Origin: Dehalococcoidia bacterium
GTDB taxonomy: Bacteria; Chloroflexota; Dehalococcoidia; DSTF01; JACRBR01
DNA: 64,000 nt
Assembly: GCA_021462855.1 (NCBI GenBank)
Contig: JAJTXQ010000040.1
Coordinates: 62,001-126,000 of the forward strand
Direction: 5' to 3'
Under the pieces are notes generated by a model. That model did no database searches. It was not told where the DNA came from and worked only from the letters and a program-made list of their open reading frames with translations. This document shows, one piece after another, positions 12,429 to 17,235 of this stretch (position 1 is the stretch's first letter; every line of letters starts with the position of its first letter). A program made the translations under genes and the position numbers.

Positions 12429-13508
12429 ATGAAGTTCAAGATCGCCGTACTGCGCGGCGACGGCATCGGCCCCGAGATCACGGATATCGCCGTGCGCGTG
12501 CTGCAGGCCGTCGGCAGACGCTGGGACCACGACTTCGCGTTCACCGAGGCGCATGCCGGCGGCGAGGCGTGGGACCGCTACGGCGAGCACCTGCCGGCCG
12601 TCACGCTCGATGCCTGTCGCGCCGCCGATGCGATCCTCAAGGGCCCGTTTGGCGGCCCGACAAGCGAGATCAATCATCCGAAATGGGCGGGCATCGAGAC
12701 GACGGCGATCCTCGGGCTGCGGCGGGCGTTCGACCTGTTCATGAACCTGCGCCCGGTCGTCGTCTACCCGGAGGTCGTCGCGCTGTCACCGCTACGGCCC
12801 GAGATCGTCGAAGGCGCGGACATGCTGATCGTGCGCGAGTTGACGAGCGGCATCTACTTCGGCGAGCGCGGCGAGCGCACGGTCGATGGCGAGCGGCAGG
12901 GGTTTGACACCGAGTCGTACACCGAGGGCGAGATCGCGCGCATCACGCACGGCGCCTTCCGCATCGCGCGGGTCCGGCGCAAGCACGTGACGCTCGTCGC
13001 CAAGTCGAACATCCTCGACTCGTCGCGGCTCTGGCGCGATGTGATGGCGAGGGTGGCGCCGGAGTACCCGGACGTCACGCACGACTACCTGCACGTGGAT
13101 AACGCATCGATGCAGATCATCACCAACCCGCGCCAGTTCGACGTGATGCTCACCAACAACATGTTCGGCGACATCCTGAGCGACGAGGCGAGCGTACTGG
13201 CAGGATCGCTCGGCATGCTCGGCTCAGCGAGCCTCAACGCCGGCGGCTTCGGCATGTACGAGCCGATCCACGGAAGCGCGCCGGACATCGCCGGTCAGGG
13301 GAAAGCAAACCCCATCGCCATGGTGCTCAGCGCGGCGATGATGCTCCGCCTCTCGTTCCAGCTCGAGGACGAGGCGGCGGCCGTGGAGACAGCGGTGCGG
13401 GCGGCGCTCGCGCGCGGCCTGCGGACGGCGGACATCGCCGGCGCCGGCGGCACGCTCGTCACGACGCAGGCGATGGGCGAGGCGATCGAGGCGGCGCTCG
13501 CCGGCTGA
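12429..13508 (+). CDS. leuB: 3-isopropylmalate dehydrogenase
   Basis: 359 residues. The beta-decarboxylating dehydrogenase fold is clear: VLRGDGIGPEI at the start, LRPVVVYPE substrate loop, RELTSGIYFGERGER (LeuB-type Tyr region), MLTNNMFGDILSDEAS with the metal Asp residues, and EPIHGSAPDIAGQGKANP for NAD binding. It oxidises 3-isopropylmalate in leucine synthesis. Other leu genes are not in the window. Start ATG is placed 6 nt after TAACCT. A GGCGGC-CCAA-GCCGCC hairpin (13521-13536) follows the stop but lacks a T-run. Confidence 0.94.
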   Translation: MKFKIAVLRGDGIGPEITDIAVRVLQAVGRRWDHDFAFTEAHAGGEAWDRYGEHLPAVTLDACRAADAILKGPFGGPTSEINHPKWAGIETTAILGLRRAFDLFMNLRPVVVYPEVVALSPLRPEIVEGADMLIVRELTSGIYFGERGERTVDGERQGFDTESYTEGEIARITHGAFRIARVRRKHVTLVAKSNILDSSRLWRDVMARVAPEYPDVTHDYLHVDNASMQIITNPRQFDVMLTNNMFGDILSDEASVLAGSLGMLGSASLNAGGFGMYEPIHGSAPDIAGQGKANPIAMVLSAAMMLRLSFQLEDEAAAVETAVRAALARGLRTADIAGAGGTLVTTQAMGEAIEAALAG

Positions 13509-13570: not shown

Positions 13571-13600
13571 TTGACATCGTTTCGGCGGCGCGCGTACCAT
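13571..13600 (+). promoter_or_regulatory. Sigma-70-like promoter of the ABC exporter leader
   Basis: TTGACA (13571-13576), 18-bp spacer, TACCAT (13595-13600). A transcript would start near 13607 and read the small ORF, the terminator and then the ABC genes. Confidence 0.75.
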
Positions 13601-13637
13601 GCGCCGAAGCCCCACCGGCGGGGGCGGGAAGGACAGC

Positions 13638-13742
13638 ATGGCAAACACCGGGACAGGCATCGCGATCTTGGCCGCGCGGGTCCGCGGGGCAGATCTGCGC
13701 GTCGGTGGGATGAATGCGTCCGGCGGAAAGGGTCAGCGTTGA
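13638..13742 (+). CDS. 34-codon upstream ORF in the ABC exporter leader
   Basis: The ORF (MANTGTGIAILAARVRGADL...) starts with ATG after a GGGAAGGAC ribosome site, lies 31 nt after the predicted transcript start and ends 28 nt before an intrinsic terminator. The peptide resembles nothing I know and is too short for the ORF track. Its place between promoter and terminator is what one expects of a leader peptide in ribosome-controlled attenuation. Part of its 3' half (13701-13713, GTCGGTGGGATGA) can pair with the terminator's 5' flank and arm (13769-13785). Translation is supported by the SD only; the peptide may matter only as a stalling track. Confidence 0.5.
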   Translation: MANTGTGIAILAARVRGADLRVGGMNASGGKGQR

Positions 13743-13770
13743 CTTAGCACTCCGGGCACGAGCGAGCGTC

Positions 13771-13806
13771 AACCCACTGCGCGACCGGGCGTGAGTGGGT
13801 TTTTTT
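13771..13806 (+). terminator. Intrinsic terminator/attenuator upstream of the ABC exporter genes
   Basis: AACCCACT (13771-13778) pairs with AGTGGGTT (13794-13801) and is followed by an uninterrupted T-run to 13806. It is the best intrinsic terminator in the window, and it lies before, not after, the ABC genes and 28 nt after the small ORF. Confidence 0.8.
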
Positions 13807-13847
13807 GATCCCTGCAAGGGACACCCGGACAAGGGGAGGAGACTGAC

Positions 13848-14711
13848 ATGAACCAAGTACCGCTGCAGGTGAACGACGTCGTGAAGTCGTTCGGCGGCGG
13901 CTGGAGCGCGAGCAGCGTGCTCCCGTGGAGGCGCAACGGCGCAAGCCACGGCCGCCGCGTCGTCGACCACGTGTCGTTCGAAGTGCGGCGCGGCGAGATC
14001 TTCGGCGTGATCGGCGCCAACGGCTCCGGCAAGTCGACGCTGATCCGCATCATCAGCACGCTGCTGCTGGCCGACGAGGGCGGCGTCCGCGTGTTTGGCT
14101 ACGACACCGTGCGCGAGGCGACACCGGTGCGCGCGCTGATCAACCGCGTGTCCGCAGACCCGTCGTTCTTCCGCAACATGTCGGCGATGGAGAACCTGCT
14201 GTTCTTCGGCCGCGTGTACGGGCTCACCGCCGGCGACGTGAAGCGGCGCACGCCGGTGATCCTCGAACGGCTCGGACTCGAATGGCCGCGCGCGCTGGAG
14301 CCCATGAGCCACCTCTCGCGCGGGCAGCAGCAGAAGGTCGCCGTCGCGCGATCGTTCCTGACCTCGCCCGTGCTCATGCTGCTCGACGAGCCGACGACCG
14401 GCCTCGACCCGCGCAGCAAACGCGACGTGCAGTCGTTCGTCCGCGACGTACAGCAGTCGCACGATGCGACGATCCTGCTCACCACGCACGACATGGACGA
14501 GGCCGAACTGCTCTGCGACCGCATCGCCTTCCTGTCCGGCGGGAGGATCGTCGCCGGGGGTTCGCCGCTGGAGCTTCGCCAGATGGTCGCCGACGGCCGG
14601 CCGCTCGACAGCATCAATATGGAAACGGTGTTCATGGAACTCACCGGCCGCCGCGTCGAGGACGACGAGGAGCCGGCCGAGGAAGGGGAGGAGGCGTTGA
14701 TCCATGGTTAG
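13848..14711 (+). CDS. ABC transporter ATP-binding protein (ABC-2 exporter type)
   Basis: 287 residues. Walker A GANGSGKST (about 60-68), signature LSRGQQQKVAVARSF, Walker B VLMLLDEPTTGLDPRS and the switch HDMDEAELLCDR place it in the DrrA/NatA-like group that powers ABC-2 exporters of drugs, lipids or polysaccharide. The signature has S-R-G-Q instead of SGGQ, a common variant. A 14-residue insert after residue 15 (SFGGGWSASSV...) and an acidic C-terminal tail are unusual. A strong GGGGAGGAG precedes ATG. The gene overlaps its permease gene by 8 bp, and is controlled behind the leader ORF and terminator described separately. Confidence 0.92.
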   Translation: MNQVPLQVNDVVKSFGGGWSASSVLPWRRNGASHGRRVVDHVSFEVRRGEIFGVIGANGSGKSTLIRIISTLLLADEGGVRVFGYDTVREATPVRALINRVSADPSFFRNMSAMENLLFFGRVYGLTAGDVKRRTPVILERLGLEWPRALEPMSHLSRGQQQKVAVARSFLTSPVLMLLDEPTTGLDPRSKRDVQSFVRDVQQSHDATILLTTHDMDEAELLCDRIAFLSGGRIVAGGSPLELRQMVADGRPLDSINMETVFMELTGRRVEDDEEPAEEGEEALIHG

Positions 14712-15546
14712 TATCGCGATGCCCCGCGCGCCCGGGACGGCTGGCGTGCTGTGGGCGTTCATCGAACGGCAGACGAATCTCTGGAAGCGCTACTGGGCGT
14801 GGGAACTCGTGTGGCTCGTGTACGGCGCGGTCAACACGCTCGCCGTCACGTTCATCGCGCGGCAGGTCGACAGCTCCGGCGCGGCCGCGAGCATCGATGT
14901 CGACCGGCTCGTGTTGTTCCTGCTCATCGGCACGCTCGTCTGGGCGTACCTGTCGGCCGTGCTCGACGACATCAGCCTGGTCGTCCAGTGGGAGCGCTGG
15001 GAAGGCACCATCGAGCACACGCTGATGGCGCCCGTCCGCCGCTCCGTGCACCTCGCCGGGATGTGCGTGTTCGGCGTGCTGCACGCCGTCGTCCGCACGA
15101 TGCTGATCTTCGCCATCGCGCTGGCGTTCTTCGAGGTGGACCTCGGCCAGGCCGACTGGCTGGCAGCGGCGACGGTGCTCTTCGTCGGCAGCTTCGCCGT
15201 CGCCGGGCTGGCCGTGCTCGCCGGAGTGCTGCCGCTGCTCTACCCCGAGCGCGGCCAGCAGATGTCGATGATGATCCAGGCGTTCGTGCTGCTCGTCTCC
15301 GGCGTCTACTACGAGGTCGACGTGCTGCCCGCGTGGCTGCACCCCTTCGCCGTGATCTCGCCCGCGACGTACATCCTCGATGGCATCCGCGGCGCGATCA
15401 TCGATGGCGAGGGCGTCGCCGGCGTCTGGCGCGAGATCGCCGCGCTCGCCGTGTTCGGCGCGCTGCTGCTTCCTGCATCGATGGCGACGTTCGCGGTCGC
15501 GGAACGCTGGGCGAAGCGCACCGGGCGGCTCAAGCGGCAGGGATAG
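14704..15546 (+). CDS. ABC-2 type exporter permease
   Basis: 280 residues with about six membrane helices: about 30-50, 72-95, 118-142, 155-180, 192-215 and 240-262. WERWEGTIEHTLMAPVRRS is the usual cytoplasmic coupling segment after TM2 of ABC-2 permeases, and PERGQQMSMMIQAFVLLVSGVYY matches the family's fifth-helix region. It forms an exporter with the ATPase encoded just upstream; the 8-bp overlap suggests coupled translation. The substrate is unknown. A perfect 11-bp hairpin follows the stop. Confidence 0.88.
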   Translation: MVSIAMPRAPGTAGVLWAFIERQTNLWKRYWAWELVWLVYGAVNTLAVTFIARQVDSSGAAASIDVDRLVLFLLIGTLVWAYLSAVLDDISLVVQWERWEGTIEHTLMAPVRRSVHLAGMCVFGVLHAVVRTMLIFAIALAFFEVDLGQADWLAAATVLFVGSFAVAGLAVLAGVLPLLYPERGQQMSMMIQAFVLLVSGVYYEVDVLPAWLHPFAVISPATYILDGIRGAIIDGEGVAGVWREIAALAVFGALLLPASMATFAVAERWAKRTGRLKRQG

Positions 15547-15762: not shown

Positions 15763-17235
15763 ATGACCCAGCGATACGTCACCACCCCGTCCGGCAAGAA
15801 GCTGGTCACGGTCATCCCCGGCGATGGCATCGGCCCCGAGTGCGTCAACGCCGCCCGCAAGATCATCGAGGCCACCGGCGCGCCGATCGAGTGGGAGGAG
15901 CGGCACGCGGGCGAGAGCGTGTTCAAGCAGGGCATCGCCTCCGGCGTGCCGCAGGACACGATCGAATCGGTGGGCAAGTCGCGCGTGGTGCTGAAGGGGC
16001 CGCTCGGCACGCCCGTCGGCTACGGCGAGAAGAGCGCGAACGTCACGCTGCGCAAGCTGTTCGAGACCTACGGCAACCTGCGCCCCGTGCGTGAGCTGCC
16101 CGGCGTGCCCACGCCGTACAGCGGGCGCGGCGTCGACCTGATTGTCGTGCGCGAAAACGTCGAGGACCTGTACGCGGGCATCGAGCACATGCAGACGCCG
16201 GGCGTCGCGCAGTGCCTGAAGGTGATATCGCGCAAGGGCTGCGAGAAGATCGTGCGGCTGGCGTTCGAGGTCGCGCGCGCCGAAGGGCGCAAGAGCGTCG
16301 CCTGCGCGACGAAGTCGAACATCATGAAGATGACCGAGGGCACGCTGAAGCGCACGTTCGAGGCGGTGGCGCCGGAATACCCGGACATCGAGTCGTGGCA
16401 CATCATCATCGACAACTGCGCGCACCAACTTGTGAAGAAGCCGGAGCAGTTCGACGTCATCGTCACGACGAACATGAACGGCGACATCATCAGCGACCTC
16501 ACATCGGCGCTGGTCGGCGGGCTCGGCTTCGCGCCCTCCGCGAACATCGGCAGCGAGGTGGCGATCTTCGAGGCCGTGCACGGATCCGCGCCGAAGTACG
16601 CCGGCAAGAACAACATCAACCCGACGGCCGTCATCGGCTCGGCGGTCATGATGCTGCGGCACATCGACGAGTTCGACGCCGCGTCGTCGATCGAGAACGC
16701 CCTCGTCGCCACGCTCGAAGAGGGCAAGACGCGCACCCGCGACGTCGTGGGCGACGAAAAGGGCGCGCCGACGACGGTCTACACCGACGAGATCATCAAG
16801 AACCTCGGCCGCAAGCCGAAGGCGTGGAAGGTGCGCGAGTACAAGCAGATCGAACTGCCGCAGGTGACGCGGGAGCCGGACTTCGTGAAGGTCGGCAAGC
16901 GCCGTGTCGCCGGACTCGACGTGTTCATCGAGTCGAACCGCACGGCGGTGGAGATCGGCGAGGACATCTCGCGCATCGTCGAGGGCACGCCGGTGTACCT
17001 GAAGATGATCGCCAGCCGCGGCACGAAGGTGTGGGAGCCGACGGGCGCCATCACCGACACGGTCGACGCGTGGTACGCGCGGCTGATGCTCCGCGACGCC
17101 GCCGGCGACCTCACCGACGCGCAGGCGTTCGACGTGCTGCAGCGCATCGCCGCGAACCACCGCTGGGCGCACGTCGAAAAGCTGCAGGAGTTCGACGGCG
17201 ACCCCGGCTATACCAAAGCCCAGGGCGAAGATTAG
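15763..17235 (+). CDS. icd: Isocitrate dehydrogenase, Thermus-like long form
   Basis: 490 residues. VTVIPGDGIGPECVNAARK opens the decarboxylating dehydrogenase fold; KGPLGTPVGYGEKSANVTLRKLFETYGNLRPVRE carries the isocitrate phosphate-binding Ser and Arg residues; VVRENVEDLYAGIEH, NMNGDIISDL and EAVHGSAPKYAGKN follow. The catalytic region ends near 335, and the last 150 residues form the extra C-terminal domain known from Thermus thermophilus isocitrate dehydrogenase. It makes 2-oxoglutarate in the TCA cycle; NAD versus NADP use is not decided here. AAGGAGAC precedes the ATG. Monocistronic, with a GC hairpin (17241-17256) after the stop. Confidence 0.93.
   Translation: MTQRYVTTPSGKKLVTVIPGDGIGPECVNAARKIIEATGAPIEWEERHAGESVFKQGIASGVPQDTIESVGKSRVVLKGPLGTPVGYGEKSANVTLRKLFETYGNLRPVRELPGVPTPYSGRGVDLIVVRENVEDLYAGIEHMQTPGVAQCLKVISRKGCEKIVRLAFEVARAEGRKSVACATKSNIMKMTEGTLKRTFEAVAPEYPDIESWHIIIDNCAHQLVKKPEQFDVIVTTNMNGDIISDLTSALVGGLGFAPSANIGSEVAIFEAVHGSAPKYAGKNNINPTAVIGSAVMMLRHIDEFDAASSIENALVATLEEGKTRTRDVVGDEKGAPTTVYTDEIIKNLGRKPKAWKVREYKQIELPQVTREPDFVKVGKRRVAGLDVFIESNRTAVEIGEDISRIVEGTPVYLKMIASRGTKVWEPTGAITDTVDAWYARLMLRDAAGDLTDAQAFDVLQRIAANHRWAHVEKLQEFDGDPGYTKAQGED

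Follow-up and report, generated by a model that had tools for sequence, protein, structure and literature searches.

In attenuators of the type known from the Escherichia coli trp operon, the position of the ribosome on the leader decides, together with polymerase pausing, between a terminator and an antiterminator, and Trp codons are sensed. In Bacillus subtilis, the induction of the ABC exporter genes bmrCD by lincomycin requires translation of the bmrB leader (PMC4191407), while in the leader of the ABC-F gene vmlR the upstream ORF lies in the anti-antiterminator, ribosome stalling frees the antiterminator, and pausing assists (PMC9226507). The yxjB leader of B. subtilis is likewise reported to choose terminator or antiterminator by ribosome position, with polymerase pausing (PMC6851288). 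The characterised ribosome-sensing resistance attenuators in the literature searched belonged to Firmicutes, Actinobacteria, and Proteobacteria.

The leader analysed herein comes from the Chloroflexota, little-studied bacteria of soil and water, and is located in a stretch of 64,000 nucleotides (the window) from a Dehalococcoidia bacterium, where it precedes a DrrAB-like ATPase and permease. As summarized in Table 1, a promoter, a 34-codon ORF with its Shine-Dalgarno (SD) sequence (GGAAGGA), a terminator with a T-run, and the SD of the ABC gene (GGGGAGGAG), all described in an earlier sequence-only reading of this DNA, were confirmed in the sequence. The promoter was the sole sigma-70-like match in 2 kb (0.1 expected by chance), and orthologous leaders possessed a similar promoter at the matching place. 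A simple terminator scanner caught a weak version only (0.7 expected by chance), and the assignment of the terminator thus rests on its full stem, T-run, and conservation rather than on the scanner score. The ATPase matched the TIGR01188 drrA subfamily at 1e-64, yet under the cutoff of that model, and the permease gene overlaps the ATPase gene to form one operon.

Table 1. Positions of the leader elements and neighbouring genes in the window.
Feature	Positions	Strand	Basis
Iso_dh (leuB/icd) family enzyme gene, upstream of leader	12429-13508		Pfam
Sigma-70-like promoter TTGACA-18-TACCAT	13571-13600 (TTGACA 13571-13576, TACCAT 13595-13600)	+	Scan of 2 kb; similar promoter in orthologous leaders
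Strand 1 (anti-antiterminator), leader SD/start region GGAC-A-GCAT	13631-13639	+	Complementary to 13714-13721
Leader ORF, 34 codons, MANTGTGIAILAARVRGADLRVGGMNASGGKGQR*	13638-13742 (ATG 13638, TGA 13740-13742)	+	Sequence; frame and offsets kept in relatives
Strand 2 (antiterminator strand within leader ORF), element GTCGGTGGGATGAATGCGTCC, consensus GTGGGTGGGAYGAGTGYGYCC	13701-13721	+	Conservation in leaders
Part of strand 2 pairing with terminator 5' arm in the window genome (2:3)	13703-13717	+	Duplex prediction
Candidate elemental-pause match GGGATGAATGCG	13707-13718	+	Consensus match; putative function
Stop-codon motif TGACTTAGC, consensus TGAGTTAGC	13740-13748	+	Column counts across leaders
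Strand 3, antiterminator partner overlapping terminator 5' arm	13766-13779	+	Pairing tests
Intrinsic terminator stem (strands 3:4), AACCCACT / AGTGGGTT	13771-13778 / 13794-13801	+	Sequence and covariation
Terminator T-run, seven T	13800-13806	+	Sequence
DrrA-like ABC exporter ATPase (predicted regulated gene)	13848-14711 (ATG 13848)	+	Pfam ABC_tran 5e-28
ABC-2 type exporter permease	14704-15546	+	Pfam ABC2_membrane 5e-13; DrrB-like, under cutoff
Isocitrate dehydrogenase-like gene, downstream of exporter pair	15763-17235		Judged by eye

Considering the evidence presented below, this leader is probably a ribosome-mediated transcription attenuator that senses impaired translation, most likely the action of ribosome-targeting compounds. 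The proposed mechanism involves four strands: the leader SD/start region (strand 1), the conserved element in the 3' half of the ORF (strand 2), and the 5' and 3' arms of the terminator (strands 3 and 4). Under normal translation, the first ribosome would cover strand 2, or would leave strand 1 and thereby allow 1:2 to form; with strand 3 then free, the 3:4 terminator would form, and the exporter would be off. When a ribosome stalls early in the leader ORF, most likely because of a ribosome-targeting compound, strand 1 would be covered and strand 2 free, and strand 2 would capture strand 3 ahead of the synthesis of strand 4, resulting in read-through and transcription of the exporter operon. 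A polymerase pause at the element would synchronise the ribosome and the polymerase. The trigger (stalling), the natural signal (ribosome inhibitors), and the coupling of both machines by the pause are inferred.

Orthologues of the ABC gene were gathered from the same order and their upstream regions compared, which revealed a matching leader layout upstream of them. A covariance model of nine leaders (R1), searched without reference to the exporter protein, matched in 14 of the 18 genomes of the order (one at E = 0.0014) and in 20 of the 393 genomes of the class, two further families among them, and a second model of 21 leaders confirmed this distribution. Since the layout is present before the orthologues of the order and was found by the covariance model independently of the protein, it stands above chance. 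Two additional Dehalococcoidia leaders were found among named Dehalococcoidia and other Chloroflexota MAG records, and overall the leader recurs in 23 genomes of the class (Dehalococcoidia-type Chloroflexota) in several families. What recurs is a short ORF in one frame, a fixed distance from the stop to the element, and a terminator pairing with the element; the comparison in relatives that the sequence-only reading had called for thus revealed leader ORF, pairing, and terminator conserved together. In a phylum-wide model search, the matches inspected beyond the known class members looked intragenic or like chance. Among the papers listed in a literature search on Dehalococcoidia and attenuation, none described the leader, which represents a new family of sequences, so far uncurated, within an already known kind of regulator.

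The ORF frame was kept in all leaders, both in the first set (13/13) and in the full set (23/23). The start codon lay 60-99 nt 5' of the element in the 23 leaders with offsets that were all multiples of three, and the stop fell 27 nt past a conserved AGT codon in 20 of them. This conservation suggests that the leader ORF may be translated. While the N-terminal halves of the peptides were variable, a C-terminal stretch, VGG(M/T)S(V/A)(P/S), was recognisable. Together with the conserved surroundings of the stop codon, this stretch might indicate that the same switch is triggered by arrest of a specific nascent peptide or by a ligand acting on the leader peptide. However, the variable N-terminal part is where a stall would be needed, and the Ser codon of the element was AGT in 21 of 23 leaders, as compared with 1 of 110 Ser codons in seven window genes and 7 of 213 in the orthologues. 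The element is therefore constrained as nucleic acid besides its coding, and a peptide- or ligand-specific trigger appears unlikely. The element and the surroundings of the stop are highly conserved in their nucleotides (AGTGYG and TGAGTTAGC), a feature that the switch model only partly accounts for and that could alternatively reflect a metabolite riboswitch or the site of an RNA-binding antiterminator protein, with an incidental ORF. The conserved frame and start and stop offsets speak against this explanation; furthermore, Rfam (release 15) gave no match at the gathering score and chance-level matches only in a permissive search, and little conserved structure was seen beyond the competing helices, so that we regard a riboswitch or protein site as very improbable.

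Several further observations concern the same region. The stop motif was kept even in leaders with a shorter peptide tail (L066, L072). A reading of the stop region NTG-ANN-TAR as a re-initiation mini-ORF was rejected, as ATG was never present there, and so was the idea that TTAG acts as an additional stop for a different frame, since that frame often closes earlier. Leaders L047, L048, and L049 contained a second small Lys/Arg-rich ORF (MSRRKKKRNRTQKRS... in L047) between the terminator and the ABC gene.

In most genomes, a single copy of the leader was found, before the exporter only. In genomes G220 and G201, the operon behind it encoded the ATPase, an ABC-F protein, the permease, an RtcB-like protein (under NCBI cutoffs), and an MFS pump. 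The ABC-F protein of G220 passed NF000355 (ribosomal-protection-like) with 416 bits against a cutoff of 380; this score applies to the G220 copy alone, and the G201 copy is of equal length with a matching start. A pair of genes for fused (heterodimeric) ABC exporter subunits came directly after the leader in G011, and another such pair lay behind the ATPase and permease genes in G071. The leader heading an ABC-F operon in two relatives fits the sensing of ribosome inhibitors, and this link rests mainly on these two genomes because most leaders front the exporter only. The downstream gene set also agrees more with a response to ribosome-targeting drugs than with control by amino acids. The attenuator architecture and the Iso_dh gene upstream in the window could suggest a starvation attenuator of the trp/leu type tied to that leuB-like gene, but the peptides of the 23 leaders contained no run of regulatory codons, the genes downstream were exporters and ABC-F without any for biosynthesis, and the upstream neighbours varied in relatives, one family (L053, L054, L057, L058) having a divergent TypA gene, which makes starvation control highly improbable.

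In that family, the divergent gene upstream of the leader-exporter operon was that of the translational GTPase, typA/bipA. The gene immediately behind L116 (G282:C30:24427-24514, minus strand; E = 8e-5), a weaker relative of the leader with a 27-codon ORF, a GTGGG element, and a terminator, was RtcB-like. Within the order of the window genome, L119 (G015:C228:8673-8753, minus strand; E = 0.0016), with a similar short ORF and terminator, preceded a zinc-ribbon adenylate-cyclase-like gene.

Between the element and the terminator 5' arm, 93% of the cells were paired in the model-based alignment, as compared with 37-51% with slid partners, and U-A/C-G and G-C/C-G exchanges were seen. As this alignment was fitted to the structure, we separately compared, for every leader, the energy of the duplex between the element and its cognate arm with the energies obtained for arms of other genomes, and the cognate arm was better (p = 0.0002). 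In the window, the sequence-only reading had paired 13701-13713 with 13769-13785, which held in substance: the most stable predicted register joins 13703-13717 with 13766-13779 at -26.9 kcal/mol and extends to 13697-13700 with 13780-13783. In L043, L050, L051, and L052 as well as the window, the register was shifted by four bases and the second GTGGG was used, with the helix still stable. In the terminator, three pairs were changed on both sides.

The sequence-only reading had overlooked a further strand, the leader SD/start region, which is complementary to the element's 3' half: in the window GGAC-A-GCAT with ATGC-GTCC, in L003 ACACTCAT with ATGAGTGT, in L050 the SD region GCACTCGT with the element ACGAGTGC, and in L004 CGCTGAT with ATCAGTG. 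Cognate 1:2 pairing exceeded swapped pairing across 22 leaders (p = 0.0002 to 0.002 for windows on the 3' half of the element). An initial test window, before centring on this half, gave p = 0.06, a window further 5' p = 0.04, and a control ORF segment p = 0.91; as four windows were tried, the best p-value is somewhat optimistic. The pairing was weak or absent in L005, L006, L011, L043, L066, and L072. Because the SD region pairs with the element, termination is expected as the default, and the 1:2 pairing would also shut the leader's own SD.

Pairing and folding predictions both indicated that the antiterminator and the terminator are mutually exclusive. When folding was run with a ribosome-sized mask along the leader, a ribosome on the element abolished the antiterminator, whose value ahead of the 3' arm was 0.20, and the terminator stood at 0.98, whereas with the ribosome in codons 0-17 the antiterminator persisted at 0.81-0.91 before the 3' arm exists. 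For the window leader, the antiterminator values were 0.87-0.99 with the ribosome at codons 4-14, as compared with 0.05 or less at codons 18-28. In the complete transcript at equilibrium, the terminator usually won, even with an early stalled ribosome; the switch must therefore act kinetically, as other attenuators do. A constitutive terminator that limits background expression without regulated read-through, which the favoured terminator state would agree with, is scarcely credible given two alternative pairings under selection that a mere terminator would not need. The promoter, ORF, terminator, mutually exclusive pairings, and their conservation are evident from sequence and comparison, and the frame, the stop offset, and the cognate pairing give comparative and structural support to the attenuator interpretation that the sequence-only reading had put forward.

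The consensus elemental pause of RNA polymerase is G-11 G-10 T-3 G-2 Y-1 G+1. The base composition at GGGAYGAGTGYG fits this consensus, with G-10, T-3, G-2, and Y-1 in 23/23 leaders, G+1 in 22/23, and G-11 in 18/23. The motif is frequent in the window (57 and 72 occurrences on the two strands), so that nothing but its conservation makes it suggestive, and the same bases are also engaged in pairing. The polymerase may pause at the element.

In Anaerolineae and a soil Chloroflexota group, orthologous exporters were located behind leaders of different sequence, whose peptides mostly end ALSYCxxCP* or RRSLPTxxM(A/V)*. Their ORF 3' halves pair with the terminator 5' arms, and complementarity to this ORF segment was also seen in their SD regions (small samples, read directly). 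They look like the same design in other sequences. L089, L090, L091, L094, and L097, and likewise L092, L095, L098, and L099, form two other families of leaders that precede this exporter. In both, the SD region is complementary to the element and the element to the terminator; compared with GGCGCAA/TTGCGCC, L089 shows a joint change of the SD region (GGCGCAC) and the element (GTGCGCC). Actinobacterial L075, L077, L080-L083, and L085 contain very short ORFs (MHHR*, MQNY*, MTPGFPHY*, VLVISHY*) roughly 100-150 bases ahead of the ABC gene, with a GC-rich stretch directly after that is foldable in several, which looks like another attenuator type. Tentatively, and with somewhat less than even confidence, we propose that the Chloroflexota may possess a lineage-wide translation-stress regulon based on cis-acting ribosome-sensing attenuators. 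In this regulon, one and the same exporter would be preceded by at least three leader families with no recognisable sequence similarity, each using its own SD region as strand 1, and ABC-F, heterodimeric exporters, and RtcB-type RNA repair would be controlled by related leaders.

The Dehalococcoidia-type family would extend ribosome-sensing attenuation to the Chloroflexota, a phylum in which genetic tools are scarce, and would serve there as a marker of genes answering to translation stress. It suggests that uncharacterised exporters and RtcB-like proteins may belong to a ribosome-inhibitor response. The model is concrete in that it specifies the strands to mutate and the codons that a stall must occupy.

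In comparison with the known systems, the Chloroflexota leader differs from the trp attenuator in having no regulatory codon run. In its plan, it resembles the bmrB leader, which also places a short leader ORF, a terminator, an antiterminator, and a putative anti-antiterminator before an ABC exporter; the terminator of bmrB, however, lies inside the leader ORF, whereas that of the Chloroflexota leader lies behind the stop codon, its antiterminator strand being the 3' half of the ORF, unlike in bmrB (PMC4191407). Set against bmrCD (PMC4191407), the exporter is ABC-2 (DrrAB-like) in the window and fused heterodimeric in L043/L055. The choice by ribosome position reported for yxjB is like that proposed for the Chloroflexota leader (PMC6851288). 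The vmlR leader follows the same attenuator plan, and ABC-F also stands behind the Chloroflexota leader in two relatives, but the vmlR pause is NusG-dependent at TTNTTT, whereas the Chloroflexota candidate matches the elemental-pause consensus inside the ORF, in a host of another phylum (PMC9226507).
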